In this document: one piece after another, positions 21,476-48,455 of the stretch | Layout: every line of letters begins with the position of its first letter | How positions within the stretch are numbered: the first letter of the stretch is position 1 | Source: Ptychodera flava | Lineage: Eukaryota > Hemichordata > Enteropneusta > Ptychoderidae | Reading direction: 5' to 3' | DNA length: 64,000 nucleotides | Assembly (NCBI RefSeq): GCF_041260155.1 | Contig: NC_091930.1 | Coordinates: 35,386,070 to 35,450,069, forward strand | The notes under the pieces: model-generated | What the model was told of the DNA's origin: nothing | Seen by the model: the letters and a program-made list of their open reading frames with translations, nothing else | Databases searched by the model: none | Translations under genes and position numbers: made by a program

Positions 21476-22988
21476 CAGTCAAAAGTCTGACTGGAACATT
21501 AGCCCATACCTGACCCTATTTTCGTTAGCAAGGCAGTCAGCGGTGGAAATGGTGCAGGGTACCAGCTACCCGTGCAGGTCGTGCATGTCCAACTCACCGA
21601 CATCATGGTCGCAAACTTGACGCTGATTGTGCCGGCTGACAAGCAACAGGCGCTGCTCCATGCCAGAGTTCATCCATCCGACGCAAAGTTTTCAAAGAAG
21701 GTGCGATAAGTTGAATAAACCAGTGAACTAGTGTTACAAGCCACATGTCACTCCTGAAAGTCATGATTAAAAACAGAAAAATGGGTCAAAATTAACGAAA
21801 TAGAGGGAGAAAAGCCGATTAAACATAAGGAAGGTCATGTGTTAACCTCTGGAGTAGCAGCGTGTTTTAGTCGAATGCACAACCATTGTATGTCATGGCA
21901 ATCTACACTTTCGAATACAATAGCGTTGATAACCTCTCATTATTTTCAATGGTGAATTTAAAGCGCTGATGGCACACAATAAACCCTACAAAATTCCTCG
22001 AGGTCAACGTGTACACGCCTCTGGTCCCATCTGCTCCCGTTGCTCTGCCGATAGCGCGCGTCAGCCATGGCCTCCGCGCAAAACTGCCGTGGGACAAGTC
22101 ACACTTTTTGCGTAGTTACTTCTAACCAAACGTTCAAGGATGGTAGAGGGGTGGCACTTAAAGAGATAAGGATATACGCGATGACGATATTATCGTCTTA
22201 GCAACTTTATGTTTCTAACCCAAACAACGTTGCGTTGGCGCGTATCCACATGATGTTGTAAATTGTCCAAATTCGTTAAGGTGAGGTATTTCTGGTGACA
22301 GTACAGATTGTTGAATGGCAATCTGCAGCGATTTGATAATCGAACACAAAAATTTCTTTCTAAAATCTACCGTTGGTTCTTGACATCGAATCTTTAGACG
22401 ACTAAAAACTCAATTCGACTCCTTCATTTGCTAAGTCATTACTACCCCTGGCCATGTCCTTCACCCGAAATTCTTGATCATTTGACCCTAAATTTATCGA
22501 AAATCAAACCTGGACGTTAGAAAGTTGTTGTTGTTGTTTAAGTTGCTGTTGTTGTTTAAGATTTCTTGCTTTAACTTTGATACAAGCGTGTTGTTTCGAT
22601 ATTCAGCCAGATAATATGATTTCTTTAGAAATGATTCGTAGCTACATTAATACCTTGTCTATGCCACACCAGAGTTTCCCATTCATTTCTCATGACACAT
22701 GTGCATGGTCAACGTCCGATCAAAACTGAAGAGCACTTTCCCTCTCTAAAGATACCTTTTGAATGACTCTGAAAGATTCAAGGACCCGATCCCACGACTT
22801 GTTGTGAAAAAATGGCACGCATGCGTGCTCCCACGACTTCACGGCCCTTGTACTGCAGTGGACACCTTGACCTAATGTACGCTCATGCGCTTGGTCATTA
22901 AACACACCCAGTCAGTGAGTAAGTGCATAGCAGTCGTTCTTCTCACTGGGTGTAGTGTCTCTTCTAACACACACTCTCTGTCTCAGCA

Positions 22989-23148
22989 ATGTCGGACATT
23001 GACGTTAAACCTCCATGGGAGAAGTCACACTACTTTAGACCCGGTTATCTGCTGCCGACATTAATGAACAAAGACACGATCGAGACTCATGTGAGAGATT
23101 TTGCAGTACGAGATGACGATGTGTTTCTTCTTAGCTACGCCAGGTCAG
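22989..23148 (+). CDS. Sulfotransferase exon 1, copy A
   Basis: Encodes [12 protein letters not shown] through LSYARSG, the N-terminus of a cytosolic sulfotransferase, ending in the 5' PAPS-binding motif (family consensus YPKSGTTW). The donor G|GTACGTG follows in phase 1, matching the phase of the exon 2 acceptor. It differs from copy B (41256-41415) at 8 of 160 bases, giving H/Y, F/L and L/I changes. A pyrimidine-rich CTCTCTGTCTCAG lies just before the ATG in both copies and could be a splice acceptor for an upstream untranslated exon. The exon is intact. It may join exon 2 at 32354 and then exon 3 of the complete gene, or be a remnant of a truncated duplicate. Confidence 0.85.
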
Positions 23149-23204
23149 GTACGTGATGCTTTCTATACAAATTCCCTTTTCACAACAAAATGTCGGTTTC
23201 GTTC

Positions 23205-23522
23205 AAGGTAGAATGCTCCTCAGGGACAAATATTCGGACTGTCAAACATTTGCCATTCTTTTCTGATCTACCACTTGTTATGGTTCATTTTAAAACTCTT
23301 GTCCTTCCTATTTTTTCGAAAATCGAAAACTGTATTTTTAATCATAGAGTTAACACCGGGATGGTGGCATCGGCAAATCTTTGGTAATTTGTTTTTCTTG
23401 TACAAAAATTGCACGGTGACCCCCGATTTTTATTCTTGATTTTTAAAGTGGGTGAAAGGTTCCTTGAAGAAAGTTTAAGAAAGAATTCAGGTCTCTCGCT
23501 TTCGGGGCGCATACCACCCTAA
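23205..23522 (+). repeat. TTAA-family MITE in intron 1 of copy A
   Basis: Starts AAGGTAGAATGCTCCTC and ends GGGGCGCATACCACCCTAA, with the same interior landmarks as other copies. A shortened version lies at the same place in copy B (about 41470-41622), so the insertion predates the duplication. Confidence 0.7.
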
Positions 23523-24538
23523 ACATGGATTTATAGTCCAACCAAACAATATAAACATAAGCAGATATTGAACACCTCACTTTTAAATTGTGCCGTTTTT
23601 CTATCAATCATGGAAATATTGACCGACAAAGTTCGACAAACGACACCGTTTGCAAAAACAATCCCCCAAGTGGAAGGGTGTTCGAAGTTATGAAAAGTTC
23701 GAACACGATTGGAACTAAATTGGGATAATTGGATGGTGAAGTAACGTCTGTTTGATCTGCAAATGTAACCTCATCTGCTTTTCTTTTTAAGTTACACACT
23801 AGCTTTTATGAGTAATTTGTAATATTGCATTATTCAGCCATAGGGCACCTAACACTTTTGGGAAATTTTTAAAATATGAAATTCCAATCATCCCAAATTA
23901 GTTCAAATCGTGTTTTCGACACTTTCATCTAAAGCGTCGTGTAGAGAGTAGCCTGTAGTTTCAAAGCCAGGTCAACCTGGATGCATAGTTGTCGACACAT
24001 ACATGGATAGTGGAGCTCTTTTGATTTCTGTTCTATCCTACAATCTATTTGTACACGTAGAGTTCTACACCAACAGTGCTTTTTTTGTCAACCGAGTCCT
24101 TTAAGTAACGCTGGCAGCTTTTAAAATACCCCTTTCAAGCTATTCAAATATTTTCTATCCATTGTCTGTGTACTCTAGTAACTCACTGCCAGTAGCAATA
24201 GCTGGGAGTCTAAGTACACTAGTAACGCACGTGTTCAGAATTTCCAAATAGCGGTGATCGCAAATGATAACATTTTTCTTTCATTCATGTGCAAAAATTA
24301 TATTTGTCCGCATTTACCGCAAGAACGACGAAATAAAACCTGCTAGTGTTACAATGGATACTAAAAGTCACATTAATTTATGGCTCGGACTACAAGGTAA
24401 AACAACAGCCACACATGCAACTACAAAATTTGTCCCATAACCGCCATTTACTCTCATCTCAATGTTGTGATTTTCTCTTTAACGGATTAGCTGGGATTAC
24501 ACGTCTGCGCCAATCGTAATGTAAATATCTAATGATTA

Positions 24539-27500
24539 AGCAATAAAGCACACCAAGCGGCGGTATACCGCGAGATTTTGACCAGTGTCACAACATATTT
24601 GTCCAGTCAATCTACGAGATTTTGGCACCTAACCCACACAAATTGCAACAGAATTTTTTTCTTCAGAATGCATTTTAATGAGGTACCCATAGCAACATAT
24701 TAAAAGTTTAATCGAATCAACCTTGGGGAAATATGTCTAATTTGCATAAATCAAATATGGCTGCCAACCATCCTACAAAATAACATAATTGGCCATATAT
24801 CACATGTTAAACAAGCTATTTCAGTGATTTCAAAGTCTGACACTAGTAATTTGCCTCAGGGAATTAATTTTGAGGTATATGTTTCATATACGCACCTCGT
24901 TAATTTGCATAATTCCAATATGGCGGCCAACATTCCTACAAAAGACATTTTCGGTCATATACCACGTATTAAACAAGCTATTTCAGTGATTTTAAAGTTA
25001 AAAGTATATTTCTTTGGCATGGACAAACGATTTCCAAGATGCAATGATTTGTATAGGTAATTTGTTAATTTGCATAAATCCAATATGGTGGCCAACATAC
25101 CTACAAAATACATTTTCTGTCATATACCATGTATTAACCCTTTGGGCGGCAAAGTCTAATTTTGTGAACTTTATAAAATGTACAACAGTCAATTTTTCTG
25201 CTTTTTGCCAAACATTGATTAAAACATGTAGCTCAAGAGAAATGAGTATCCATTTGGTCCAAAATTATGAAAAAACCGCACAAAATAGTTCACAGACATT
25301 GGTAAAATTTTGCATTAAAATTGTGCTGTAAAAAAACTACAGCAGTCAAACGGTAAACAAGCCATTTCTGTGATTTCAAAGTTAAAAGTCATATATCTTT
25401 GGCATTGACAAACAATTTTCGAGATGCAATGATTTGCATAGGTACTTCGTTAATTTGCATAAATCCAATAGGTTTGCCAACATACCTACAAAAGACATTT
25501 TCTGTCATATACCACGTATTAACACCTTTGGGCGCCAAAGCCTATTTTTGTCAACTTTATAATAAAATGTACAACAGTCAATTTTTCTGCTTTTTGCCAA
25601 AAGTTTGATTAAAAACTGTAGCTGCTGAAAAATGATATCCATTTGGTCCAAAATAATGAAAAAAAGTTACAGAAATGTTCAAAATATTGCAGTAAAATTT
25701 TGGTGTAAAAATTACAGCAGTCAAAGGGTTAGCTATTTCTGTGATTTCAAAGTTAAAAGTATATTTCTTTGGCATGGAAAAATGATTTTGAGGTGCAATG
25801 ATTTGCGTTGGCACTTTGTTAATTTGCATAAATCCCATAGGGCGGCCAATATACCTACAAAAGACATTTTCTGACGTCATATATCATGTATTGAACAATC
25901 TATTTCAGCCATTTTGAAGTTTAATTATATTTCTTGAGCATGAAGAAACACCCTTTTGCGGTTCATTGTTTTTTAAAGACACTTTGATAATTTTCAGAAA
26001 TTAAATATGGCTGCCAAATTAATGCCCAATAGCTTCTAATATAAATAAGGTTATGGTAGAGTTTTTAGGAATAGGAATATCAAGAAAAAGCTGTTTAGAG
26101 GGCACTGCACCCAACTAGTGTATTTTTGCTTAAAATATGTTTTTGCAAATATTCGTCCAATTTTGATGAATTTGTTAACCCAAGATTAAATTTTTTTTAG
26201 GTTCACCTTTAGCATGGCAAGCAGTCGTAAGTTGCGTGATATAGAAGGGTTAATGTATGCAAATGTACGCAAATCACCCGATTTCCTGCTTCCCTTTTAT
26301 CCGAATTTCAAGATTTCCAAAGAATATAACTCTGGTCTGGCTGGGTCAAATTTTCTGAAATTTTCACATTATGTTTTTAAATGCTACATAACAAAACAAC
26401 TATTTTGTTTTGCAAAAAATTCTTACATTTTAAATTAGAGGCATTTTTATTTTGTTAACCATGATTTTAAGCACTTTTTTAGTGTCAGTCGTGCAGCCCA
26501 TACCATTTTAGAATGGAGATATACTCTTGTTTCAAGTGAAATATTACATTTTACAAAATAGTTTCTATGGGTTTCCTTGTCATCTTAGATGAGAAATACT
26601 CCCTTGAAAAAAATGTGTTGGCAACGTGCAGCTCCACCTTAAGTCCTTGAACATTTATTTTTATATAAAAAATAATAAAATAATAAAATGTGGGAAAATA
26701 TACTATAAATTAACTTACAATAACGATCCATTTACGAATAAAAGTTTATTTTAATAGGTGTCTGTGATACCTGAATTCGTTAAAATACTCCATGACTATA
26801 TTGTATTTTGAAAAGAATGTTAAAGCAAATTTGGTAGACTTACATATATGACTTCCGAACGGATTAAAATACGTATATGTTGATGTGCGTTTACTATTGA
26901 GATGTAAGAAAGTCATGCAATTTTAATTATTTGTGATTTTTCTAAATATGACAACCGTTAATGATTGTTAGTCATCTTATAATGATCTCTTTCTGAATAT
27001 AACTTTCGATTCATCTGTGTACGGCATTATTTGTGATTTTATAGGTGCTTCATACTCTACAGTATAAAACAGGTAATCTTTAATGTTTACTGTTTTAAAA
27101 AAGTCGTGGACAAAATCTTTAGTTTCTAATTTACACTGAACCCCTCCTTATGGACGAGTTCATCTTTGGTACATCCCCCTAGACGATAGGCAAGAAGTCA
27201 TCACATATAACAGCAAAAATACAATAAACACAACAAAGATAATAAAAACGCAGAAAATAAAATAATGTGACCAAAAATAACACATGCCACAATACAGACA
27301 AAATAAAACTTAGCGCTGATGCAAACAATGTCAGACTCTTAAAACTTGATCAACACACAAACTCGCAAAAATTGAAAATTGCATGCTTAGCAAAGGCTTA
27401 AAATAACAGCCCAACAAAATCCAAACTGTTACACGATACAAAATGTACATCTGGATAAATTACACTCGGAAAAATGACTCAAGATGTACTTGTTTGTATT

Positions 27501-28846
27501 GTGTAATAGTTGGAACTCTGTGTTTGGATTAATTGTAAGTCTTTGCTAAAGCGTGCAGTTTTCAGATTTTTTTGAGTTTGTGTGTCCATACATTTTTTTT
27601 TAGGATCTGACATTGTTTGCAATAGTGCTAAGTTTCAATTTGTGTATTATGGCATTTTTTATTTTGGTCATATCATTTTTTCTGTTTTTTAGCTTTGTTG
27701 TGTTTATTGTATTTTTGCTGTTATGTGTGATGACTTCTTGCCTATCATCTAGGGGATCTTATAAAGATGCACCCATCCATAAGAAAGGGGTTCAGTTTAA
27801 ATTAAAACCTAAAGATTTGAACACGTCTTTTTTAACATTAAACATTACAGATTACATGATTTGGCACTGTAGAGTGTTAAAACCCTTACAAATTACGAAA
27901 ATGCCGCACATAGATGAATTCAATGTTATATTCAAAAAGAGAATATATCATTCAGAAGACTAACAATCATTAACAGTCGTCATATACAGAAGTATCAGAA
28001 TTTCAAAAATGAATGTCAAAGAACTTAACAGTTTCTTCTTGATAGTTTCCTAGTGCTAAAAACTATACCGAACCCTTATTTATATTACAAGCAATTAAGC
28101 CATAGGGCATTAATATGTCAGCCATATTTAATTTATGCAAATTATCAAACGGCCTTTGTAAAAATTGAGCCACTAAAAGTGTTTCTTCATACCCGATAAA
28201 AATATTAAAATTTTACAATCACAGAAATAGCTTGTTTAATGCGTGGTATATGACCGACAATGTCTTTGTAGGAAAGTTGGCCACCATATTGGATTTATGC
28301 AAATTAACAAACCTATGCAAATTATTGCATCTCGAAAATCATTTGTCCATGCCAAAGAAATATACTTTTAACTTTAAAAATCACTGAAATAACTTGTTTA
28401 ACACGTGGTATATGACAAAAATGTCTTTTGTAGTAATGTTGGCCGCCATATTGGAATTATGCAAATTAATAAAGTACCTATATGAAACATTATACCTTCA
28501 AAATGAATCTCCGAGCCAAATTACTAGTGTCAGACTTTGAAATCACTGAAATAGCTTGTTTAACATGTGATATATAGCCAATTATGTTATTTTGTTGGAT
28601 GGTTGGCCGCCTTATTTGATTTATGCAAATTAGACATATTTCCCCAAGATGGATTCGAGTAAACTTTTAATATGTTGTTCTGGGTACCTCTCTGAAAATG
28701 CATTCTGAAGAAAAAAATTCTGTTGCAATTTGTGGTGGGTCTAACCCTATTTGACTGGACTATTTGCCACGAGCAATAGCAAGTGCATATTGAAGTGGAC
28801 TGGTCAAATCGAGTGGTATACCATCGCTGGGTGTGATTTATTGCTA
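24539..28846. mobile_element. Foldback-type element with tandem subrepeats in its arms
   Basis: The two ends are inverted copies (left AGCAATAAAGCACACC, right GGTGTGATTTATTGCT) and the inverted homology continues inward on both sides. Each arm carries tandem subrepeats with CAATATGGCGGCCAAC, CATATACCACGTATTAA and TTTCTTTGGCATGGACAAA motifs, about five cores on the left and three on the right. An inner inverted pair (about 26760-27450 and 27490-28020) meets near 27470. The copy B intron lacks the whole segment (near 42185), giving an empty site. No transposase is seen. A 116-codon frame at 27613 lies in the inner arm and is probably non-coding. The structure resembles foldback elements such as TU elements of sea urchins. 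Confidence 0.75.
26105..26645. repeat. Interspersed repeat, copy 1 (also at 53483)
   Basis: Shares AAGCAGTCGTAAGTTGCGTG-like, TTCGTTAACCCAAGATTAAA-like and GATGAGAAATACTC...CGTGCAGCTCCA segments with 53483-53897. It sits inside the left arm of the foldback element, where the right arm has no counterpart, so it inserted after the arms formed. The class is unknown. Confidence 0.6.
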
Positions 28847-29024
28847 TTATATCATAACAGTATATTGAGATTATGGCGCACAACGTCATAAACGGAATTT
28901 TGCTCAAGCTTAGGGCTCGCGCGTATGCCAGCCGTGGTATATCGCCAATATACCACGGTTCTTTTTGCCTCTCGACCAATCAGATCATTGTATTAGTGCC
29001 ATCAATATACTGGTATGATATAAT
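28846..29024. mobile_element. Small palindromic MITE beside the foldback element
   Basis: Inverted ends TTATATCATAACAGTATATT and AATATACTGGTATGATATAA surround a second, inner hairpin GCCGTGGTATATCG / CAATATACCACGG. It is absent from copy B together with the foldback element, so the two may have arrived as one unit or in sequence. Confidence 0.6.
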
Positions 29025-29983
29025 TTATTAATATCACACTTTATGAATGTAGACGCATTTTCTTGTTTTTTTTGCATTTCTGCTTTGTATCCGCTCCATT
29101 TTTATTTACTGTTCGTTTTGTTTTCTGTTATGAGTTTTTATTAGACGACAAATTAATACTGTATTACAAATCGGCTAATTTTCAATGATTTGTTTTGAGT
29201 TGACTGCCGCAAAACAGTGAGAGCTATAGTGACTTGCTCAAAGAATTCACTGAAACATGCCTCTGAAACTATAAAACAAGTGCGTCAACTAAACGACGTT
29301 CAAGACGCGTCTTCGTACGGTGATTCTTCTTTAATCATCTAATTCTAGCTCTCATTTTTATAGGTCGATAACGATGGGAGTTTATCCACTTTGTTGAATT
29401 CCAGTGTCTGACTATACCTGTCTGTCTGTCAGAAAATGAGGAACGACTTGCACCTTGAGTCGGTAGTTTCTAAAGATAAGCTGGCCTTGATATTTGATAT
29501 TTAGCTCATCAGCATGCCACTAGGAAAGATTCCTAGCTATGTCATACTGAATTGAATCGTGGCATGTTGAAATTTTGAGGAGAGTTGACTATGTTGTCAA
29601 GAATAGGCCATTATAACTCTTATCGTGGATAATACACGGTGATTGTTTCAAGTGCCTACCTTGACACACCGTTATAGAACCTGGTAGCCAAAGATGGCCC
29701 TTGAAATTTATAGTATGGAAAGATCACAGTTCACTTTCTGGCACCGTACTCGTATATATCTAGCTCAACTCAACACTGAGAGACCAAGCTGATACTATTA
29801 AGTGCCTTGAAATTGAGATGGTCAGAACATAATGTATCCGAGGTTTCCTCAAGAAAAGATTTGACCATTTTATTTAACCTGAACAGTATTAATCAGGGAT
29901 AACCTTGAACGCTTTCGCATCGCTGTAACACCTAACTAAAATTTGCCTAAACTGGAAGCTGTGTTTGGCCGCTACAACCCATA

Positions 29984-30295
29984 TTAAGGTAGAATGCGCC
30001 TCGATGACGGGTGTATTCGGACACTAAAGTTTTTCAAACTTCTTTTCTGATCTACTGTATCTCTTGTAGATCTTCTGTAGTTCTTGCAGAACAAAAATAT
30101 ATCGTCTTAGTTTTTTCGAAAATGGAACATTCTATTGTTATCATAGGGTTACATATGGATAGCGGCCATATTGAATTTAAAACACCAGTTAGTTTTTTTT
30201 TCTAGTGCCAAAATTTCCACGATGACAAATGATTTTTTATTCTGGATTCGGTATAAGTATGATTGAAAGTTTCACTGAGAAAAGTTTTGACTTGT
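29984..30295 (+). repeat. TTAA-family MITE, right end lost (copy A)
   Basis: Begins TTAAGGTAGAATGCGCCTCG and keeps the interior to the AAGTTTTGAC region, but lacks the right terminal repeat. The copy B counterpart starts at 43252 and loses homology after about 50 bases. Confidence 0.6.
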
Positions 30296-30359
30296 GACTC
30301 TTCTGGAATGCCGGCAAGTATTACCAAGTTATTGTTACATTGGGGAGATAATACTTAGA

Positions 30360-30507
30360 GGTTATTACCCAATATCGCCTGTTCCTATGTTGTATCAGCA
30401 TGAGTGTCATTTGTCGTCAGACACGAGACGAAGTCGAGTGTCTGACGCAGCACAAATGACATTAATGCTGATACGACACAAGGAACAGGCGATATTGGGT
30501 AATAACC
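30360..30507. repeat. Hairpin of hairpin-bearing unit 1
   Basis: Arms start GGTTATTACCCAATATCGCC and end in the exact reverse complement. The centre is slightly eroded compared with the second copy. Confidence 0.85.
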
Positions 30508-31328
30508 GATTTATCATATACCCATGCCCACAATTTTAGGGAATTTTTACTAATAGAACGAAAAACACCATAATTTTGAGGCTTTACTTTATTACGACTT
30601 GCGCATAAATATCAGAATGTTTATGTAAACAGGCTTCATTCATAAAAGTATACGACGAAGATGTCAACATCACGCGCGACATCGCTGCAAGTCGTCCATA
30701 TCTCAATGAAACACAAGAGAAAGACACAGGGATACAAAAATTTCATACAGAAGAACATTTTAAGGTGCAATATGCTATTACAACTGTAACCGATCAAAAA
30801 CTGCTCAGCTTTAAATCTATCCTGATTTCGATCGTCGTACGGCACGGAGCTCGCGCGGAGAGGACGCCATTTTGTTAGTTTACCCTTAGAGTTGCCATGT
30901 CAACAGTCGTCGCGCGCGCGACATCGCTGTCACGCCACGCGCTCACTACCTGTTCGGTGGAGACCGTGCACAGTGCCGGCGCCGTGCGAACGGCAGAATG
31001 TTTGCTAGAATTTGACCAAAAAAAATACCATGGGAAAACATTTCAAGACTCAACGTGATATTTCCGTATTTTGCAACCAGAAATACCTGTGTTCCTCGAA
31101 GCCCTTCAAGTTTTTACGTCGGCAACATCGCTTCGCAGGCGGGGAGTGGCAGCCATTTTGTTGTTTACGTTGTTTACCAACAAACTGCTAATGTAGTTCG
31201 GGAAAACTCTAAAACTGATGACGTTCATCGTGCATATCTCGACGTTTACCGTGAAATACCACGGCTGATATTTTACGTTGAACGTCACTAGGATGTAGCA
31301 ATATGGGCATGGGTATATGATAATTAGA

Positions 31329-31480
31329 GGTTATTACCCAATATCGCCTGTTCCTGTGTCGTATCAGCATGAGTGTCATTTGTGCTGCGTCAGACACGAG
31401 ACGAAGTCGAGTGTCTGACGCAGCACAAATGACACGAATGCTGATACGACACAAGGAACAGGCGATATTGGGTAATAACC
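31329..31480. repeat. Hairpin of hairpin-bearing unit 2
   Basis: Arms of about 70 bases pair almost perfectly around GTCAGACAC/GTGTCTGAC, with a short central loop GAGACGAAGTCGA. Confidence 0.9.
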
Positions 31481-32353
31481 GATTTATCATATACCCATGC
31501 CCATAATTTTAGGGAATTTTTACTAATAGAACGAAAAACCTTAAATTTTGAGGCTTTACTTTATTACGCCTTGCGCATAAATATCAGAATGTTTATGTGA
31601 ACAGGCTTCATTCATAAAGTATACGACGAAGATGTCAACATCACGCGCGACATCGCTGCAAGTCGTCCATATCTCAATGAAACCCAAGAAGAAAGACACC
31701 GGGATACAAAACTCGTCATACAGAAGGAACATTTTAAGGTCCAATATGCTTTTACAACTGTAACCGATCAAAAACTGCTCAGCTTTAAATCTATCCTGAT
31801 TTCGATCGTCGTACGGCACGGAGCTCGCGCGGAGAGGACGCCATTTTGTTAGTTTACCCTTAGAGTTGCCATGTCAACAGTCGTCGCGCGCGCGACATCG
31901 CTGTCACGCCACGCGCTCACTACCTGTTCGGTGGAGACCGTGCACAGTGCCGGCGCCGTGCGAACGGCAGAATGTTTGCTAGAACTTGACCAAAAAAAAT
32001 ACCATGGGAAAAAATTTCAAGACTCAGCGTGATATTTCCGTATTTTGCAACCAGAAATACCCGTGTTCCTCGAAGCCCTTAAAGTTTTTACGTCGGCGAC
32101 ATCGCTTCGCAGGCGGGAAGTGGCAGCTATTTTGTTGTTTACGTTGTTTACCAACAAACTGCTAATGTAGTTCGGGAAAACTCTAAAACTGATGACGTTC
32201 ATCGTGCATATTTTGACGTTTACCGTGAAATATCACGGCATTTTACGGTGAACGTCACTAGGATGTAGCAATATGGGCATGGGTATATGAATAAGATCTG
32301 TTCAAAGTGTTATTCTGACAATACCATATTTGATTGTTTCCTATAAACGCTAG

Positions 32354-32610
32354 GAACGGCCTGGACTAATACCATACTGAACGCCATCATATATGTGGAC
32401 AACTTGACTTACCTAGACTCAATCGACATCCATACGAAGTTAGCATGTCTTGAGGTCGGTCCAACAGGCGACGACCTGGCAGCCGAAGGCATGGTTTTTC
32501 CCAAGTCCTTTATCGAAATGTTCATCAATGACTGTCCCTCGCCGCGTGTCATTCACTCCCACCTGTACGTCGACTTTTTGCCAAAGCAGTACTTCGTCAA
32601 GAAACCCAAG
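32354..32610 (+). CDS. Sulfotransferase exon 2, copy A
   Basis: Follows an acceptor ACGCTAG and opens with GTAWTNTIL, completing the 5' PAPS loop from exon 1. It contains [12 protein letters not shown], which holds the catalytic-base histidine of the family (THLP-like position), and ends ...KKPK at a phase 0 donor GTCGGT. Compared with copy B (43659-43915) only 3 of 257 bases differ, all synonymous, while the bases just outside the exon differ far more. The exon is intact, which points to continued selection or gene conversion. No exon 3 follows before 45211. Confidence 0.85.
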
Positions 32611-32759
32611 GTCGGTCAAGTGTATAGCTAGATATCCTGCGCCATTCCAATTTTGCTGTCGGCTGCTCTGTGTTAACGCATCGGGTGACCAACTGATCTA
32701 TAATGGCGGTACATGATCATGGGGTAAAAACATAGTTCTTTATTGTGAAACTAGAAGTT

Positions 32760-32815
<56 letters not shown>

Positions 32816-32831
32816 AGGAGAGAGAGAGAGA

Positions 32832-32867
<36 letters not shown>
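32760..32867. repeat. (GA)n microsatellite in intron 2, copy A
   Basis: Long interrupted GA run at the same offset from exon 2 as the (GA)n at 44020 in copy B, hence older than the duplication. Confidence 0.95.
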
Positions 32868-37264: not shown

Positions 37265-37454
37265 CACATATTGACTGGCCATGAGGACAACAGCATACGT
37301 CTTTTATAACCCCTCGGCCTGTGAGTCACCCCAAAAACAGACTGTTTCCCTCGGCCTACGGCCTCGGGAAACAGTCTGTTTTTGGGGGTGGCTCACAGTC
37401 CCTCGGGGTACAGACGTACAGTATGCTGTTGCCCTCATGGCCAGTCAATATGTG
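37265..37454. mobile_element. Palindromic foldback MITE
   Basis: Arms of about 90 bases pair from CACATATTGACTGGCCATGA / TCATGGCCAGTCAATATGTG at the outside to ACAGACTGTTTCCCTCGG / CCTCGGGAAACAGTCTGT around the centre GCCTACGGC. Inner arms are nearly perfect, so the insertion looks fairly young. No coding capacity. Confidence 0.8.
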
Positions 37455-37561
37455 TATACTGTGCAACAGCCGTGTAAGGCAACAGTTCTGGGTAATAACA
37501 CCGACAGATGCATACAGTAGCAGCTAGACTTGGTTCAAGTCTGTGATTTGTGAATGTTTGA

Positions 37562-37664
37562 GTGGAGTGAACGCAATGATTTGTATTTTGCTTTCATGTG
37601 AAACGCGCGCGTGAGTGGACGCGATGAGTAGGGTGAACGCGATGAGTGGAGTGAACGCTATACA
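37562..37664. repeat. Short minisatellite
   Basis: About four imperfect copies of a roughly 20-base unit with core GTGAACGCGATGAGT. Inverted segments (GACTTGGTTCAAGTCTGTGA and TCACAGACTTGG) flank it at about 37527 and 37680. Confidence 0.6.
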
Positions 37665-37856
37665 GCGGAGTTTCACCCGGAATCACAGACTTGGCTTTCT
37701 TGCAGGGTTTGCGTTGCTATAAATTATTCATGAGATGACGTTTTCTTTACTCATATATTATTCATAAGATGACATCACTAAATTTTACACATTGGGAGGA
37801 GTTACCAATTGACCCAAACGAGACGTGCATAAAACTCACATGGCGTTGTTGACAAA

Positions 37857-38171
37857 ATGTCGAGTGCGATCACTCCCACAAAAGTCAGCACGACCTCTGT
37901 TCTATCACCGAAAACGCGTGAAAATATCTGTGTTGTTTGTGGGGCCCATGTTACAAAATGCGAAAATCGTGGCCGGTTATTCAAGGATGGAAAAAGACAC
38001 CGTCCTTACAAAATCTTACGAAATCTCTTACGTGCCCAAAGCGATGGAAATCAAAACAATGTGGGGCGACTTCGTATGTCAGTGATTTTCCGCTGCCGGT
38101 TGGTGCGCAGACGAACACATCTTTTCCCTCAATGTAACTCTCAACAAGCTTTCTTTGGTAATCTCGCATGA
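37857..38171 (+). CDS. Candidate zinc-binding N-terminal exon
   Basis: Open frame from ATG 37857 (MSSAITPTKVSTTSVL) leading to ENICVVCGAHVTKCENRGRL, a CxxC...C pattern like a small zinc-binding head, and then a basic stretch (FKDGKRHRPYKIL). The second half is antisense to the helicase exon at 38032-38229, so only the first ~58 codons may be genuine. No firm splice donor on the plus strand. Family not identified. Confidence 0.35.
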   Translation: MSSAITPTKVSTTSVLSPKTRENICVVCGAHVTKCENRGRLFKDGKRHRPYKILRNLLRAQSDGNQNNVGRLRMSVIFRCRLVRRRTHLFPQCNSQQAFFGNLA

Positions 38172-38229
38172 TTAGCGGTGTTCGACCGATCAGTTGTAAA
38201 ACGCGGTTGACGTACGAACTTGATGCCAT
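38032..38229 (-). CDS. RecQ-like DNA helicase, first exon only
   Basis: Starts at ATG 38229 (MASSSYVNRVLQ). It encodes the region before and including motif I of a superfamily 2 helicase: RDYQRKLVESYIEGKDVFV, a Q-motif-like and pre-Walker segment, and then the ATP-binding Walker A loop APTGSGKS followed by LTYEVAPHCFDF. It ends at a good donor, GGGCAC|GTAAGAG. Motifs Ia-VI of the helicase should be in later exons towards lower coordinates, but none is visible. It is therefore an isolated exon, from a truncated copy or a gene broken by rearrangement. Multi-copy RecQ-like genes of this type are common in invertebrate genomes. Class is fairly sure, activity is not. Confidence 0.55.
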
Positions 38230-38306
38230 TATTCGCCCGATATAAAACGTACTCGATGTCTAGCTTTGCACGGAGATGACAACAAACTTTTTAATGCATG
38301 CAGAGG

Positions 38307-38312
38307 TTTATT
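38307..38312 (-). promoter_or_regulatory. AATAAA downstream of candidate terminal exon
   Basis: Canonical poly(A) hexamer on the minus strand 15 bases beyond the stop codon of the frame ending at 38327. Confidence 0.35.
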
Positions 38313-38326
38313 AGCAAGCGTTCTTC

Positions 38327-38518
38327 TTATTGGCCAGAATAACGGCGGGGGCTGTCAATCATTTGTATTTGCTCTACGTCACTGTGTACACTGTCCGTCT
38401 CATCGCCTGTACTTTGCAAGAAGTCTAAGTCGGTGAATCCGGCAGAAACTAACTCACTACTGCGCAGACTCAAACGTGACGCATTCAATCGCTGGGAAAA
38501 CCTGGCGTGAGCTGCCAA
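38327..38518 (-). CDS. Unrecognised candidate last exon
   Basis: Minus-strand open frame without an ATG, possibly entered by the acceptor TTTTCCCAG at about 38496. It encodes RLNASRLSLRSSELVSAGF and then an acidic Asp/Ser-rich tail (DFLQSTGDETDSVHSDVEQI) and a stop, with AATAAA close by. The composition looks like a protein C-terminus, but no family is recognised and no upstream exon was found. Confidence 0.28.
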   Translation of the reverse strand: MAAHARFSQRLNASRLSLRSSELVSAGFTDLDFLQSTGDETDSVHSDVEQIQMIDSPRRYSGQ

Positions 38519-40460
38519 ATTCCGGATAGGTTTGTACGAAATAGGAGAGACACAAGAGAAACTATTATAAATGATTTTATTTTTTTAAAATTCACCGACT
38601 TGAACCAGGTCTAAGTAGCAGCACTAACGCCCACACTAACGGACGAGAGCAGTGACACTGTAGTATTTGAACAGGGACGGTAGAGCAAGTGTCTGTCAAA
38701 AAAGCCTTTATATTACTGGTACCTCGCTGTGGACATACTGTCTGTGCTGTAAACAGGTCGTTCGCTTCCAACTCAATGACGTCATAGTGCAAACTTGATG
38801 CTGATTGGTGCCGCGCTGACAAGCAACAGGCGCTGCTAAATACCAAAGTTCATTCACCCAACACAAAAGTTTTAACACAAGGTGCAATAAGTAATGAACT
38901 TGTGTTTCGAGCCAAACGTCATCCCTGAAAGTCATGATTAAAACAGCAAATGCGTCAAAAAGTAACGAAATAAAAAATGACGATTTGGTTGTTATAATCC
39001 CTACCAACTAAGCCAAGAAACAGAAATACACAAAACTGAAAAACAAAAAACCCCGATAATCAATGGAGGTCCATCAGGGGTACAATTACATCGGTCGACT
39101 GGCCTTCACCAAGGTCAACATGACCGAAACGAGTCGATCCTACTCCTGAAAGTTTTCAGTTTTGAAACAAAATAGCATATAGCACGAAAATGGTGTCTTC
39201 TACTAACAGAAGTTTTTACGCATTTTTTAAGACACAAAATGCACGTCCGATCAAACATAAAGGAACATCACGTGTTCACTTCGACCTCTGGAGTAGCAGC
39301 GTAGCGATATGTCATGTTTTAGTCAAATGCACAACCATTGTATGTCTTGGCAATCTATCTTTTCGGATGCATAACGTTGATAAACCCTTACATTTCAATA
39401 GCGACTTAAAATCGTTGATTCGATTGTACACCTACCCCATTCCTTGGGGTCAACATGTACAAACAGGTCGCATCTGCTCCCGTTTCTCTGCGGATAGCCC
39501 GCGTCAGCGTCGTGGCCGCCGCGCAAAACTGCCATGGAACAAGTTATACTTCTTGCGTTGTTACTTCTAACCAAAAGTTCAAGGATGTTGTTAAGAGGAG
39601 GGGAAGGGCATTTAAAAGTATACGAATACACACGAAGACGATAAACACGATTGGAACTAATTTGGGATAATTGGATTTTCACATTTTTCAAAGTTCTCAA
39701 AAGTGTTAGGTGCCGTACAGCTGAATGTTGCAAAATCGCAAAAATTAGTTCATTAAAACAAGTGTGTAATATAAAAAGGAAAAGCAGATGAGATTACATT
39801 TGTAGATTAAATCGACATTACTTCACCATTCAATTATCCCAAATTAGTTCCAATCGTGTTCTTATTATTTAATCAACTAATGTTGCGCGGGGCGCGTATC
39901 CTCACGATGTTGTAAATTGTCCCAACTGGTTGAGGATGTCATATAGTAAGGTTTGTCTGATGACAGTACAGGTCGTTGAATAGAAATCTGCCGCTATCTG
40001 ATGATCTCACACAAAAGTGTCATTCCAAAATTACCATTGGTTGTCGAAATCGCATCTGTAGACGACTAAAAACTCAATTTATCTCTTTCTTTTTTTCTAA
40101 ATCATCACTACTCCAGCCATTTCCTGCTGCAGTCTTGTTTATTTGACCCTAATTTTATCGGATGTTTGGAGCTTGACGTAAAAAAGTAACCTTTGTCTTT
40201 GATTACGATTTCTTGCTGTATATATTTGATACAGCCGTTTTGCTTCAATACCACAACAGAGTCTACCATTCTTTTCTCCTGACTCTTGTGCATGAAGAGC
40301 ACTTCCCCTCTCAAAAGATACCTTTGGAATGACTCTGAAAGATAATTCCGTGACCAGATCCCATGACTTGTTGTGAATAAAATGGCACGCACGCGTACCC
40401 CCATGACTTAACGGCCCCTGCACTAGAGTGGACGCTATGATATAAATGTACTTTATATAA

Positions 40461-40725
40461 GGCCAAAGTAATTAAATTCTTTGTTTTGCGTCCACTCTAA
40501 ATGGGAAAAGGTACGCGTCTAAGCGGCTGAAAAACACACACAAGAAAATTAACACAATGTAATTTGATTGCAGCAAATAAAAACTGTAACAAAAGTTTAG
40601 TTCAGAAAAGCTAAGCGGTCATGTCCTAAAATTTCCTATTCAAATACACTGTGTGTGTTTTTCATGAAGACCTTAAAAACCTAGGCGGGTGGGGACGCAA
40701 AACAAAGAATTTAATTACTTTGGCC
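40461..40725. mobile_element. MITE with 33-bp terminal inverted repeats
   Basis: Left end GGCCAAAGTAATTAAATTCT, right end AGAATTTAATTACTTTGGCC, pairing on inward through TTGTTTTGCGTCC. No coding capacity. Copy A has no counterpart here. Confidence 0.8.
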
Positions 40726-40727
40726 TA

Positions 40728-40838
40728 ATTGCCTGATACACGGGTTTATGTGCCTTAGAGCAGGTGACAATTTCCCCGGCGCTAGGGGGCACATTGTTTC
40801 CTGCTGCGAGGGCACATAAACCTATATATTCAGGCAAT
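40728..40838. mobile_element. Short palindromic MITE
   Basis: Ends ATTGCCTGATACACGGGTTT and the inverted AAACCTATATATTCAGGCAAT pair, as do the inner GTGCC/GGCAC segments around a GGCGCTAGGGGG centre. It lies two bases from the previous MITE. Confidence 0.65.
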
Positions 40839-41255
40839 ATTATTTTATCACATGCCTCGTCACAGTTAATGCTACATGACATTTAATAACATACAGGGCA
40901 TTTTCGACCAATTTTACCATTATCGACCAGCATCATAAAATTTTAACGAAAGTCAAATAGTAGAGCGCGCCTGGATATTTTACATCTAGCGTTAAGCGTC
41001 TACTTTGACCTCGAAACACGAAGGGCTTCGCTGGACCGGGTAATTATGGAAACATGTCAGTACATCGTTCACTTGCCCACAAACTCCCAATAAGATCCTA
41101 TTCACATCAATACACTGATTTGTACTCAGATCGGGGCATGTAATAAACCATACACTATAGGTCATTAAACACACCGCATCAGTGAGTGAGTGCATAGTAG
41201 TCATTAGTCTCACAGGGTTTTAGGTCTGTTCCAACACACACTCTCTGTCTCAGCA

Positions 41256-44013
41256 ATGTCGGACATTGACGTCAAACCTCCATGGGAGAAGTCATACTAC
41301 CTCAGACCCGGTTATCTGCTGCCGACATTAATGAACAAAGACACGATCGAGACTCATGTGAGAGATTTTGCAGTGCGCGATGACGATGTGTTTCTTATTA
41401 GCTATGCCAGGTCAGGTACGTGATGCTTTCTAAACAAATTCCTCTTTCACAAGAAAATGTCGGTCTCGCTCAAGTCAGAGTGCTCCTCGAGGACAGATAT
41501 TCGGACACTCAATCATTTACAATTCTTACTAGTGGGTGTTCATTTTAAAGCTCTTTGTGTAAGAAAAATCTTGACCGTCCTAGTTTTTCGAAAATCGAAA
41601 ATTGTATTTTTCTGCATAGAGAGTGGTTGTAGTTTCAACGCGAGGTCAACCTGGATGGATATCAGCAGGTCGATATTTGTCGACACATACATGGATAGTG
41701 GAATTCTTTTGACTTCTATTCCATCCTACAATCTATTTGTGCACGTACTACACAAACAGTGTTTTTTTTGTCGATGAGTCCTTGAAGTAACGCTTGAAAG
41801 ATGGCAGCTTTTGAAATACCCCTTTCAAGCTATTCAAATACTTTCCGTCCATTATCTGTGTACCCCGGTATATTTAAAACGTACGTGTTCAGAATTTCTA
41901 AATAGCGGTGATCGCAAATGATGTCATTTTTCTTTCATAAATATGCACAAATAAATAGTTGTCCGCATATTCCGCAAGAACGACGAAAATATAAACTGCT
42001 AGTGTAACAATTGATACTATAAGTGCCTAATTTATGGGTCGGACTACAAGTTGAAACAACAGCCACGCATGCAATAACAAAATTTGTCCGATCAGCGCTA
42101 TTTACTCTCATGTCAATATTGTGATTTTCTCAGAAAAGAATTAGCTGGGATTAAAAATCTGTGACAATCATAATGTAAATATCGATTGATTTATTAATCT
42201 TTCAATTTATGAATGAAAATATTTGTAGACGTTTTTCCTTGTTTTCTGCACTTTTCTGCTTTGTATTCGCTCCATTTTTAGTTACTGTTCGTTTGTTTGT
42301 CAGCAGTGAGTTTTATTGGACGATAAATTAATATTACAAATCTGCTATTTTGCAATGATTTTTTTTAGTTGACTGCCGCAAAACAGTGAGAGATAAAGTG
42401 ACTAGCTCAAAAATGCACTGCGACATGCCTCTGAGACCCCACTTTTAAAATAAGTGTGTCAAAACAAACGACTTTTGAGCGCGTTTTCTAACTGGGATTC
42501 TTTTTAATCATTTTAGTTTAACTCTCATTGTTACATGACAATTGGAGCTTGTCTACTTTGTTTATTTTCAGTGTCTGCCTGTGTGTCTGTTTGTCAGAAA
42601 ATTAGCAAAGACAGACAACTTAAGTCGTCAGTTTTTTAAACAGAAGGTTGCCCTAGATATTTGATGTTAGGGTACCAAATGTAGATATAATGAAGATTTT
42701 TTAGCATTAACTCAATCATTGTGTAATTTTCTTCTTGAAGTAAAGTTAGCTCATCAGCATGCCACTGAATTGGAAAGATTCCCAGCTTTTTTCTACATTC
42801 TGTATAAAGTGTATCAAGTTCTGTTGAAATTTTGAGAATAGTAGAGTATGTTGTTAATAATAGGGCATTATAACTTTTATCGTAGAGAATACCCAGTGAT
42901 TATGCCCAGTTCCTACCTTGAAATGGACACAATGTCCACGTCATAGAACCTGGGTGGCCAAAGATAGCCCTCGAAATTTACATTCTGTGATCGATACAGA
43001 TCACTTTCAAGCATCAAACTCTAATTCGTCTAGCTCAACTCAACAGTGAGAGATGAAGCTGATACTTATACGTGCCTTAAAATGGAAATGGTCAGAATCT
43101 ACTACCCGAGGTTTCCTCAAGGAAAGATTTGACCGTTCTATTTTAACCTAAACTATATAAATCAGGGTTAACCTTGAACGCTTTCGCATTGCTGTAACAA
43201 ATTAACTAAAGTTTACCAGAACTTGAAGCTCAAATTGGCCGCCACAACCTATGTTAAGGTAGAATGCGTCTCGATGACGGATATTCAGACGGGGTTTTCA
43301 AGAAGTAGTAATGCTACAACCAGGTGACCTTGCAGTGGTTTAATTTAGAAGGGACATCTTTTAGTGATGATCGTGAACGTTTTAATTTCATCATCATGCC
43401 TCTAGTGATGAAAATTGAATTTTCCATTACGACCCTTTGCATGTTAGAAAGACTTATCTATAGGCAAACATAATGTTCTAACGGAAAATGCGATGGCGTC
43501 CCTCATGGATTTCAATAGAAATCCAAGGTAAACCGTATGACTCTTCTGGAATACATGCAAGTATTAGCAAGTTATTGTTAAATTAGAGAGATAACACGAT
43601 CTGTTAAAAGTGTTATTCTGTACAATATCATATGGTTTGTTTCCTTTTTTAACGCTAGGAACGGCCTGGACTAATACCATACTGAACGCCATCATATATG
43701 TGGACAACTTGACTTACCTAGACTCAATCGACATCCATACGAAGTTAGCATGTCTTGAGGTCGGTCCAACAGGTGACGACCTTGCAGCCGAAGGCATGGT
43801 TTTTCCCAAGTCCTTTATCGAAATGTTCATCAATGACTGTCCCTCGCCGCGTGTCATTCACTCCCACCTGTACGTCGACTTTTTGCCAAAGCAGTATTTC
43901 GTCAAGAAACCCAAGGTCGGTCAAGTGTATAGTTCGATATCGTGCACCATTTTTATGTTGCCGTTGGCTTGTTTCTGTTGACGAACTTGGTGACCAACGA
44001 CTGGTCTATCCAT

Positions 44014-44074
<61 letters not shown>

Positions 44075-47000
44075 AGAGAGAAGAGAGAGGAGAGAGATGA
44101 TAGTATGTCTAACAGTGTTTGTGTGAAAACAGCAAAGGTGGTACGTGAAATATTATATTCCAAAAGAGGGGCTACGTGCCAAAGTACACATGCACATATT
44201 ACAGCGAAGGGCGTTATGTGGTAGATCAAATGTACTTTTGAGAAAATTCAGCAACTGTAGCTTCCGTGTTAAAACTCGGCTTTTTAATGCATTTTGTAAT
44301 AATTTCTATTGTATACAATTGTGGTGTGATTACAAGGCGTCATCAATCCGTAGTTTGCACGTGTGTCACAATAATGCTTTACGTAGGTTGTTGGATTTAC
44401 CACGAAATGCTAGTATTTCATCTGCATTTGTAGTAAACCAAACTGACAATTTTCCTATCTTGAGGAGGAAAGCTGTGTACAGTTTTGTTCGTAGACTTCT
44501 ATATAGTGAAAACGAACTGCTTAAGAGTCTATTACACTCTGACGCCGCTTATTTTGGCCTGCACGACAAATGGCAAAAGCTTCTCTATAGCAGATTTTAA
44601 AGTGATCGTGGATTGATTGATTGATGGTTCTGTTAATTTTCTCTTTATTTCCTCTCAGTATTTAATTGTATAGTTTTTATAGTGTCCTTTTACTTTCTTT
44701 GTGCTATGGACAGTTATTTTTAACTTGTCTGAAATAAAGTTGAAATAATAATAATAATAATTACGTCAAGTGAAAATACGTTGGTCAATTCACAATCCCT
44801 GCGTGGCCGCCCGTTGCCGGTTATTTTGTTTTCTTGTTTAATTTATTATATCCATGCAGACAGCAGGTATATATTTAGCTCTTGATTACGTGACAGAAGC
44901 AAACCGGATCAGTTGGGCCGCCATGTTTCAAGTGAACATTGACAATGAAGCAAAGCCTGAAGATTTGTGATCACAGTAGACAATAGTACAAATATTACTC
45001 CTAACCTAGGGTGCTTACTCACACTCATACGACAGTTTTGAATGATTTATTGAAGTATACCATTTTACCCAGCTGTTTTAAATGATAATATGATAATATG
45101 TAAACTTGCACATACAGCGCGTAAAATTGATTAAGCTACTTTACAATCCTTTGCCGAAATGTATCATTTCATCAAATCGTGTCACACTGTGCATTTGCTT
45201 TCCTAAAAAGACTGTCTATATAAGAAGAGACCCAAAAGATGTACTTGTGTCGATAGCGGAGCACCACAACAGCGCAAAATACCACGGATGTGTGCCTTGG
45301 GAGAAATACTTTGAGGAATTCTTGAAGGAGAATGGTAAGTAGGAATATATTCGATCTATGCCAGGTCGACGAAGAGAACATGTATTTTGCGAGATATTTT
45401 ATATCAGTATTCAAGGCAGGGTTTTCAAATCAAAAACTGAAAAATCCTATGTTTGTTCTTGAGGCATAGATGTGCCCCACAGCACTGGGACACTTGCTCG
45501 ACTACAGAAGGACATTTGCAAATTCACCTGACGTTTTTTTCAAGCATCATTACTTTCTGCAATACCAGAGAACGACAAAAGTACATGACTAAAACAGCCG
45601 TATCGGTCCAAGAGATTAGTTATTTACACACAGCACGCAATCTGTCTCCGACGAGTCAGAAACAAAAAACCAAAAAAAAACCAAACAAAACAAAACAAAA
45701 CAAAAATGGACACGGCGAAACCAAAGGACCAATCTTAGACATAACAAGACCCTCGTATTAACGGGGCGGTTATAGATAATACCTGCGTAACTTTCCAAAT
45801 ATGTGACGATTTCTCTCATGCTTTGAAAGCTACGATACTTGACAATAATTTGACACAGAGCAGTGCTGTCGTCAAAAAAGGAATAAAGAGGAAGAATTCG
45901 TTTTTAGCTTCATTGATACCTTCATGCCGTGGTAAAATAAAATTTGCCTAAAGTCTTTGGTAAAGACTTTGGTTCAAACCTCATTGAGGTGGTCCACACG
46001 GCATGAATTTAGCGTTCCGTAAGGTGATTTTCATTCAATTAAACCATTTCAATTATTTCTGAAAGGATAATATCTTAACGCAAATTTGTGAAACGGTTTC
46101 GATACAGCGTATCAAGTTCGGATTCAGGAGACAGGCACTGGACCATGAAAAATTTCTTATTGCCGCACACTAACTCTCTCTGTCTCGCTTATTGAGTAGC
46201 ATTTATTTGTTTTGCTCTCTTTCCCTCCACATCGAATACGATTACTATCAGACATGCAGACGATACTGTATACAGTAAATTATTTATTTTTATTCTATGA
46301 TTTTCACACTCTCCCCTTTGAACCCTAGGTGATTATGGTTCTCCATTTACTCACACCAAGAAATGTGCAGAATTCATGAATGAACCGCGGTGGTTATGCT
46401 TTACATATGAAGAACTACGGAAGGTAAAATAATATTATCATACATTACAGTTGTAAAATGGCGAGTTCACTATTTCTGATGGGAATGATAAATTATGACG
46501 TCATTCAAAGACATTCAACTGGAAAAATCAAATGTACATAAGTTACCATTATTTAGAGTTTCAGTTTGCAAATTTTGTGAACTTTCAAGTCAACTAATAA
46601 AAATTACTTCAAGTACAAAGTAATAATATCTGTAACTTAAGTTTCATGCTTCCTGCAATCATCAGACAGATGAAATATAAGGATCCTTAGCCCCAGACAC
46701 TCTTTTGCGTCTTTGGGACGTACCATTCTATTTGTGGGTGGTGTTAAAATTTGATAAATATTATTTATTTTGGTGGCGACATTTTGAAACCAACTCAGGG
46801 CGTTTGTTTAATAGCGTAGAATTCTCAGCATTGATAATGTGAAGTTTTACTGATATACAGAGACTGCATCGCTTGCTTATATTAGAGTAGCTCAATGCTT
46901 TGTCAATATTGCTGTCGCTATATTGACTTGTCTAGGATATTAGATCTGCTATCAAGAAGATGTCAGACTTTATCGGCAAAACATTGAATGAAGAAGAAAT

Positions 47001-48455
47001 CGACAAGGTAATTAATTATACCAGCTTCAACCAGATGAAGGAGAGATATGAGAACTCTCCGACACCATTCTACCAGGAAAAGAATGCCGGAAAATGGATA
47101 AGGAAAGGTAATGTTTGTTCTTTAACATCCGGTCATTCTTTTGTGTGCATAATATAAACCATGGCGCTTGCTGTTGCTGTTCTTTGATGTTAAACAGGTA
47201 TCACATGACAGATGGACATCTATCAATTCAGGACTTAAACAAAAAATAATGCATAATGAAGTTTTTTTTGCATTTTTATTGAATATTTTATCATAAGGAG
47301 GCTATGACCTCTGCTAGGCTGTTGCTAAGCGACAATCACTAATCAATATGGCGGCGCGTCAAACAGCCGCCCGATCGACTATACCGAGAGTTTCAGTTGA
47401 TTTCTAATCCGACATTGATTCAATTGATTGTTTATACCTACAGGTAGGATTATTCGTGCTCTGAACTTTACAGAAGTGGGTGTTTTATGATATAAAGCAT
47501 TTTTAACGTATATAGACAACAAAACTGAGCCTTTAGTCCTACTAGCCTACGTTGTGCACCCTCGTTTTTTCGTTCTATGTGTGTCTAATATTTCCGAGTG
47601 GTTTCATTCTATGAGCACGGTAACTTTATACACCGTCCCCCAGTAAACTAATACAGGTAGATTGCAACAAAGGGAAAAGTTGTGTAAAATGAAGTTTTTG
47701 TTCAAGAAGATAAGACAAAGCACGATCCCTTGAGTGGAGGGCCTGTCGACAAAATTTATAACAGTGACATGGCAGAATGTTTATACTTTTATTTGTCAAA
47801 ACACACTTTGCTAAATTCGATTCTACGTTAGCGACCAACGAAATGCATATGATAATTTGCCTTCCATTGGCAAAAAACATGCGTCTTTCAGAAGAAGTCT
47901 GTGACACTATGTCGTGTAAATTTAACTGTTCCTGGGAGATTAATGGTCATTTTAAAGGTATTTGAGTTGAAATATCTTCCATCACATTTTAAAACCTAAT
48001 GTAACTATAAATTATGTTTAATATATTTCGAACTGTGAAGTAAAGGTGCATTTCCAAGTTTAATGGTGGCAAAGCTTTACTTTTATTTGATGGAGCAAAC
48101 TGTAAGTTTCCATTAACGAAATACAAGTGTTGGACGAAGCTGCTAACTTGACATCCACCATATTGTTTTCAATCTTGTGCAAATCATGGGCGTTCTCGCT
48201 CAAGGGTCAATACTGGGAGTCATCTTCAGGACCAGTCACAAAACCTGATGTTTGTTCATAGGCAATGATAAGTTGTGATTGCACAGACCCCTTTGATCTT
48301 CATCAATTATTGACATGACTGTTTGTCGTCTCTGGCATCTTTCAGGTGTGGTCGGAGACTGGAAACATCACTTCACCGTGACTCAGAACGAGACCTTCGA
48401 TAGAGTGTACGCAGAGAAGATGAAGGGATATGAGCATCTGATGTACAAATACTGA
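41256..48455 (+). CDS. Cytosolic sulfotransferase, complete six-exon gene
   Basis: Transfers sulfonate from PAPS to hydroxyl or amine groups of small molecules in the cytosol. Exons: 41256-41415, 43659-43915, 45211-45334, 46329-46423, 46936-47107, 48346-48455. All introns are GT-AG and phases match, giving 918 bases and 305 aa, the family size. Visible motifs: 5' PAPS loop YARSGTAWTNT (consensus YPKSGTTW, here Pro-Lys replaced by Ala-Arg), catalytic histidine in [12 protein letters not shown], 3'-phosphate site [10 protein letters not shown], and the C-terminal [13 protein letters not shown] (RKGxxGDWKxxFT signature). No signal peptide. Exons 1-2 exist again upstream at 22989 and 32354, and a dead exon 6 lies at 52591. 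A LINE tail lies in intron 2. The Lys to Arg change at the PAPS loop may lower or alter activity. Subfamily and substrate cannot be named. Confidence 0.93.
41470..41622 (+). repeat. Shortened TTAA-family MITE, copy B intron 1
   Basis: Left portion only (CAGAGTGCTCCTCGAGGACA to AAAATCGAAAATTGTATTTT). The right part, present at 23340-23522 in copy A, is deleted together with some flank. Confidence 0.55.
44020..44098. repeat. (GA)n microsatellite in intron 2, copy B
   Basis: Counterpart of the tract at 32760. Confidence 0.95.
44181..44762 (+). mobile_element. 5'-truncated non-LTR retrotransposon (LINE) tail
   Basis: Encodes the C-terminal end of a non-LTR reverse transcriptase: [54 protein letters not shown] and the closing [13 protein letters not shown]. 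The stop codon is at 44598-44600, then about 160 bases of 3' UTR with AATAAAG and an (AAT)n tail. This fits CR1/L2-like or Jockey-superfamily elements, in which short 3' repeats replace poly(A). The homology between the duplicated introns ends exactly where it starts, so it inserted in copy B or the copy A match ends here. The remaining frame is open, so it may be fairly young. Confidence 0.8.

Follow-up and report, generated by a model that had tools for sequence, protein, structure and literature searches.

Organisation of the sulfotransferase locus

The window, the whole 64,000-base stretch of DNA that was analysed, is 38.6% GC with zero N and contains a six-exon cytosolic sulfotransferase gene of the animal type. 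Exons 1 and 2 of this gene are present twice on the plus strand, with copy A at 22989..23148 and 32354..32610 and copy B at 41256..41415 and 43659..43915. In both copies exon 1 is 160 bp and exon 2 is 257 bp. B exon 1 runs from the ATG to a GT donor and B exon 2 is bounded by AG and GT. Copy A keeps the GT donor of exon 1, the AG and GT of exon 2, and an acceptor-like tract before its ATG. As the sequence-only reading had it, both copies are intact and have matching splice phases, and copy B alone is followed directly by the remaining exons. These, also on the plus strand, are exon 3 (45211..45334), which is in frame with AG and GT at its ends, exon 4 (46329..46423), exon 5 (46936..47107), and exon 6 with the stop codon (48346..48455), the last three completing the joined frame of copy B. 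No trace of exons 3 to 6 above shuffled sequence was found after copy A by local alignment to both strands of 32611-38753.

The joined frame of copy B is 918 nt and encodes 305 amino acids. It contains the Pfam domain Sulfotransfer_1 (PF00685, E=9.7e-60) at residues 42-298, thus extending across the whole protein. The protein matches 44 distinct sequences of solved structures at E values up to 0.001, the best being 5.6e-44, and these matches make its fold evident. At the sequence level, the sulfotransferase motifs are recognisable and presumably have their usual roles: SYARSGTAW aligns with TYPKSGTTW of 1cjm in the PAPS loop region, with A and R where that structure has P and K; H123, the putative catalytic histidine, aligns with the histidine in KSHLP of the same structure; and the C-terminal RKGxxGDWK is present as RKGVVGDWK.

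A single set of exons 3 to 6 had been proposed, which holds for intact exons, since a tblastn search of the window in all frames with the whole copy B protein (E up to 10) identified no further intact exon. It does not hold for exon 6 as such, which has a second, dead copy at 52590..52700 on the plus strand (tblastn E=2.8e-9), carrying two in-frame stops. Plus strand searches for exons 3 to 6 in 8000-22900 and 48456-64000 found nothing above shuffles except this exon 6 sequence near 52590.

The duplicated blocks

The copy A block (21575..32960, plus strand) consists of approximately 1.4 kb of upstream sequence, exons 1 and 2, and the start of intron 2. It is colinear with the homologous part of the copy B block (38754..44182, plus strand), and the homology stops inside intron 2, at 32960 and 44182. 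The presence of introns in copy A shows that the copying was DNA-mediated. Between the blocks is an interval of 5.8 kb (32961..38753). Its matches are all short, of low identity, or to simple repeats, and most lie on the opposite strand; no counterpart of it was found in B intron 2 past 44182 or in the 3' flank of B. Copy A may have landed 5.8 kb upstream of copy B, or 5.8 kb may have been inserted later at a tandem junction.

The introns and flanks are more diverged than the exons, as had been claimed, differing at 430 of 2342 aligned bases when six segments are counted and at 787 of 3655 when a seventh, gappy segment (28992-30354) is added. There are 45 indels in the six segments and 70 with the gappy one. 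The different insertions reported for the two copies are also present. Found only in A are 24545-28991 (4.4 kb) and approximately 30355-32289 (about 1.9 kb), the latter located before A exon 2, while B has, for example, an insertion at approximately 40452-41157. Upstream of A exon 1, the 1.4-kb stretch has diverged at the flank rate, and no conserved promoter can be seen in it. In a search for conserved elements upstream of 22966 and 41233, the longest identical run was 23 bases, which is about what is expected, by estimate, at 20% divergence.

Some of the inserted sequences have a recognisable structure. In A intron 1, a large palindromic insertion is found at 24632-28740, with outer arms that are 91% identical and an inner part, 26946-28000, that is self-inverted (79%). 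A 0.98-kb element with inverted ends is present as two head-to-tail copies (95%) at 30341-32294, stopping some 60 bases short of A exon 2. In B intron 2, near the end of the A/B homology, an open frame at 44127-44600 resembles by eye the tail of a LINE reverse transcriptase; in Pfam it has only a sub-threshold match to TM250.

Similarity of the exon copies

The exon counts of the sequence-only reading were reproduced. Exon 1 differs between A and B at 8 of 160 bases, with 5 synonymous differences and 3 amino acid changes, and exon 2 at 3 of 257 bases, all synonymous, leaving the exon 2 proteins identical. Across both exons there are 11 differences in 417 bases, no stop, and no indel. The N-terminal H/Y, F/L, and L/I differences are H14Y, F16L, and L48I; across the 305 residues, the possible A and B isoforms would show no other difference.

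Among non-exon windows of the alignment, with gaps counted, the minimum is 36 differing columns for windows of 257 columns (n=2287), against 3 in exon 2, and 22 for windows of 160 columns (n=2892), against 8 in exon 1. The similarity of both exons thus goes beyond chance. Identity between the exon 2 copies stops 8 bases upstream and 17 bases downstream of the exon; 17 identical intron bases likewise follow exon 1.

Decayed copies in the same locus

A tandem duplication of approximately 4.2 kb, at 48122-56548, spans exon 6 and its 3' flank. The first unit (48122..51827, plus strand) takes in the last part of intron 5 and continues through exon 6 into the 3' flank, and two pieces of it match the second unit (52361..56548, plus strand) at 70% and 68%, gaps included. 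The second unit begins about 0.5 kb past the last matched base of the first. The dead exon 6 differs from exon 6 at 22 of 110 positions and the flank, measured in the initial 1.1 kb of the duplication, at 199 of 916. The dead copy has therefore decayed at the flank rate and is an internal control for neutrality.

There is also a decayed, older copy of exon 1 upstream of A exon 1 (22060..22210, plus strand). Its local alignment score of 168 was not equalled in any of 500 shuffles or 621 other windows. The score at the homologous place near 39526, upstream of B exon 1, was matched by 278 of 500 shuffles and is not significant alone. Exon 1 was probably duplicated earlier than the event that generated A and B. 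Together, these two relics demonstrate that exon copies out of use do decay at this locus.

Constraint on copy A

By Nei-Gojobori counting, the A and B exons differ at 8 of 91.5 synonymous sites and 3 of 325.5 nonsynonymous sites, a dN/dS of about 0.10. For exon 1 the values are 5 of 34.3 synonymous (14.6%) and 3 of 124.7 nonsynonymous sites. A comparison of synonymous with intron divergence had been suggested from the sequence, and the two exons differ in it. The synonymous divergence of exon 1 is no different from that of the flanks (Fisher P 0.41-0.82 with three reference sets), so there is no sign of recent homogenisation, yet this exon is constrained. That of exon 2, 3 of 56.2 sites, is below the flanks (P 0.0015, 0.008 or 0.09, depending upon the reference set), and for both exons taken together the values are 0.0025, 0.018 or 0.24.

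Neutral decay fits these exons poorly. Given the flank indel rate, the absence of any indel on the A branch across both exons has P=0.018. If there had been no conversion and the A branch were free of constraint, about 41 changes would be expected, and the probability of 11 or fewer is 9e-9. Simulations were started from the B cassette with the dN/dS of B set at 0.1 and flank rates of K=0.15, 0.21, and 0.253, with 2000 runs each. Without conversion, a copy A that is free for 25% of its branch has P values of 0.006, 0.0015, and 0/2000 at these three rates, and one that is free for 10% has values of 0.109, 0.015, and 0.0045. Constraint throughout without conversion also accounts poorly for the synonymous sites, with probabilities of 8 or fewer synonymous changes of 0.049, 0.001, and 0.001. 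For exon 2, 3 or fewer synonymous changes were seen in 2.05%, 0.2%, and 0% (0/2000) of runs.

Because the model without conversion fits poorly, weight is placed on a conditioned test, in which the simulations hold 8 synonymous changes and conversion that resets the clock is thus allowed. Under this condition a wholly neutral copy A has P=0.008 (483 runs), a copy that is neutral for half of its time is marginally disfavoured (P=0.047, 495 runs), and a fully constrained copy has P=0.66 (439 runs). A simpler binomial for a wholly neutral copy gives P 0.015-0.03. A wholly unconstrained copy A is unlikely.

The earlier suggestion that copy A is under selection is therefore supported, by the near-neutral synonymous divergence and few amino acid changes of exon 1, by the lack of any stop or indel in 417 bp, and by the contrast with the locus's own dead exon 6. 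The alternative offered with it, gene conversion, is not needed for exon 1 and is possible for exon 2, and both selection and conversion may have acted on copy A. The low synonymous count could reflect a neutral rate in the exons that is below that of the flanks, or else conversion or synonymous constraint acting mainly in exon 2. As there are too few synonymous changes for the flank rate, conversion or extra constraint has probably also acted, again mainly upon exon 2. Copy A does not have the neutral-rate decay of a pseudogene, although it could still be a very young one. The two copies are more diverged than expected of an allelic difference, and A has been constrained for much of its history.

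Reading frames and splicing

Joining A exons 1 and 2 to exons 3 to 6 gives a full-length frame of 306 codons, and A exon 1 joined to B exon 2 and exons 3 to 6 is full-length as well. When A exon 2 and B exon 2 are both included the frame breaks, at codon 148 if they are joined directly and at codon 165 if B exon 1 is between them, which makes these two exons mutually exclusive. A exon 1 followed by B exons 1 and 2 and the rest is open but longer, at 359 residues.

The acceptor-like tract CTCTCTGTCTCAG, followed by CA, directly precedes both exon 1 ATGs and is identical in A and B. This suggests an untranslated exon further upstream of exon 1. With the same tract at both ATGs, one upstream promoter with a splicing choice is possible instead of two promoters.

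Interpretation and alternative explanations

The locus could have arisen in the following way. A partial duplication at the DNA level would have copied the 5' part of the gene (upstream region, exons 1 and 2, and part of intron 2) beside it. The upstream copy appears, on the statistical evidence from this window, to have been preserved by purifying selection at the protein level during much of its history. A exons 1 and 2 would then be spliced in place of B exons 1 and 2 across 12.6 kb to the shared exons 3 to 6. Nearly the same enzyme could then be made from a further 5' cassette, which would either be driven by a promoter of its own or be selected by splicing from a shared untranslated exon that lies upstream. 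Its benefit would be regulatory. With only 3 of 305 residues different, identical exon 2 proteins, and position 48 varying among the four solved relatives with inspected alignments (V, V, N, and L), any benefit of an A isoform is more likely to be regulatory than to concern catalysis or substrate choice. Partial duplication, selection on A, and use of A as an alternative 5' cassette are the best, if tentative, explanation. The intact exons, donors, and acceptors of copy A are in its favour. Against it, A exon 2 meets the acceptor of B exon 2, and probably that of B exon 1, before exon 3, so that skipping is an assumption, and the synonymous sites are poorly explained by selection if there was no conversion.

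It is also conceivable, though rather unlikely, that A remained a full tandem gene through most of its history, that its exons 3 to 6 were lost recently, and that it is now a young pseudogene carrying the constraint of the former gene. The selection signal could indeed predate a later loss of these exons: according to the simulations, A could have been unconstrained for roughly the last 10% of its branch if there was no conversion and for up to about half of its time if there was, and the locus has other decayed duplicates. However, loss of exons 3 to 6 alone should have left the 3' flank of A before 38754, and between 32611-38760 and 48456-64000 there are only opposite-strand, low-identity matches, with no exon 3 to 6 trace on either strand. 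The homology of A instead stops within intron 2, as for a partial duplication. A whole-gene duplication with its 3' flank kept is likewise unsupported, as 32611-38760 has no same-strand match to the 3' flank of B. Repeated gene conversion from B could have kept the exons of an unused copy A similar, and would account for the few synonymous differences in exon 2 and for a synonymous total smaller than the flank rate would predict, even under selection. This is somewhat less probable again, since exon 1 has the synonymous divergence of the flanks, A is short of the nonsynonymous changes expected from its own synonymous dating (the conditioned P=0.008), and exon 6 and its dead relic were not homogenised. 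In addition, identity ends close to the edges of exon 2, which random tracts rarely would do and which constraint on the exon fits better.

The flank divergence of 18-21% is far above the heterozygosity known from animals. This makes it improbable that A is the 5' part of the other haplotype joined in series with B by the assembly. Serial haplotypes should also share flanking sequence, but the matches between 8000-21700 and 32611-38760 are all short, of low identity, or simple repeats, and the window contains no N. The comparison that speaks for this reading is Acropora, where expanded sulfotransferase genes are described, in the available text, from a region that is non-syntenic between haplotypes (PMC12314368). 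Least probable by some way is a short product of A, possibly regulatory, in which exons 1 and 2 are read into intron 2. The frame is open up to the stop in intron 2 and would give 145 amino acids, but such a product lacks exons 3 to 6 and the RKGxxGDWK motif, so that no enzyme is expected if that motif has its presumed role, and the donor site of A exon 2 has been kept.

Comparison with known systems

In UGT1, tandem 5' exons lie upstream of one constant 3' set and each variable first exon has its own promoter, as far as the available text describes (PMC3325998). On that description, UGT1 (UGT1A) is similar to the locus with the cassettes in being a phase II conjugating enzyme with variable 5' exons and constant 3' exons. 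Like a variable-first-exon gene, the sulfotransferase has two intact 5' cassettes upstream of one constant set, each in frame with it. UGT1 cassettes are single first exons that encode different substrate parts, whereas the sulfotransferase cassette consists of two exons, the second with a 3' splice site, and its copies are nearly identical. Variable exons of the UGT1 and protocadherin type generally have no 3' splice site and downstream ones are therefore skipped. Here B exon 2 has its AG acceptor and the acceptor-like tract precedes both exon 1 copies, so a splice from A exon 2 to exon 3, unlike one from a UGT1 first exon, must pass the B exon 2 acceptor.

The sulfotransferases SULT2B1a and SULT2B1b arise from alternative first exons, with unlike N-termini and no known recent exon duplication. 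That system also has one sulfotransferase gene with two isoforms, and differs in that copies A and B are nearly identical. Solved structures of both isoforms, 1q1q and 1q1z, are among the matches to the copy B protein. The available part of one report describes them as two isoforms of one cytosolic sulfotransferase gene and assigns them different steroid substrates (PMC4591525). The structure of SULT1C3 variant d, 2h8k, is also among the matches. SULT1C3 splice variants come from duplicated 3' exons; variation there is at the 3' end, where this locus has a dead copy, its intact copy being the 5' one.

In Drosophila yakuba, tandem duplications that form chimeric structures or shuffle regulatory elements alter expression, according to the accessible portion of that study (PMC5460883). 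As described there, these are polymorphic duplications in a population sample, while the sulfotransferase copy is old, with about 20% flank divergence. Tandem expansion of sulfotransferases is reported in Acropora, and the word 'exon' is absent from the available text (PMC12314368). Among the listed papers, judged by title and opening of the abstract, no comparable sulfotransferase locus was found, which does not prove absence. Searches for relatives by sequence pattern gave 0 matches in viral contigs and 42 in genome contigs, none a relative.

Partial gene duplicates are often taken as dead. In this locus 5' and 3' partial duplicates of one gene adjoin, with similar flank divergences of 18-21% and 22%, respectively, and the 5' duplicate has been kept while the 3' duplicate has decayed. 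With such a pair, the idea that partial duplicates of the 5' end persist as alternative cassettes can be tested cleanly. More tentatively still than the cassette explanation itself, the gene may have two 5' cassettes of two exons each, which exclude one another and share a single constant 3' part. It would then parallel UGT1 independently in a different class of phase II enzyme, with a long-range splice that skips acceptor-bearing exons, and the dead 3' duplicate would indicate that retention was worthwhile for the 5' copy alone. If confirmed, this would be a conjugating enzyme besides UGT1 with the same layout.

Other features of the window

Two diverged copies of a glycosyltransferase-like gene are found on the minus strand at 1787-3465 and 6028-7813. 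The frame at 1936-3465 has a Glycos_transf_2 match (E=7.5e-10), and the frames of the second copy are without a Pfam match, but the copies have approximately 70% DNA identity over 584 bases. Also on the minus strand, a frame at 10875-11501 has a sub-threshold match to Gly_acyl_tr_C (19.7 bits, cut-off 27). A frame at 59080-59736 contains a Pentaxin domain (E=2.8e-22).
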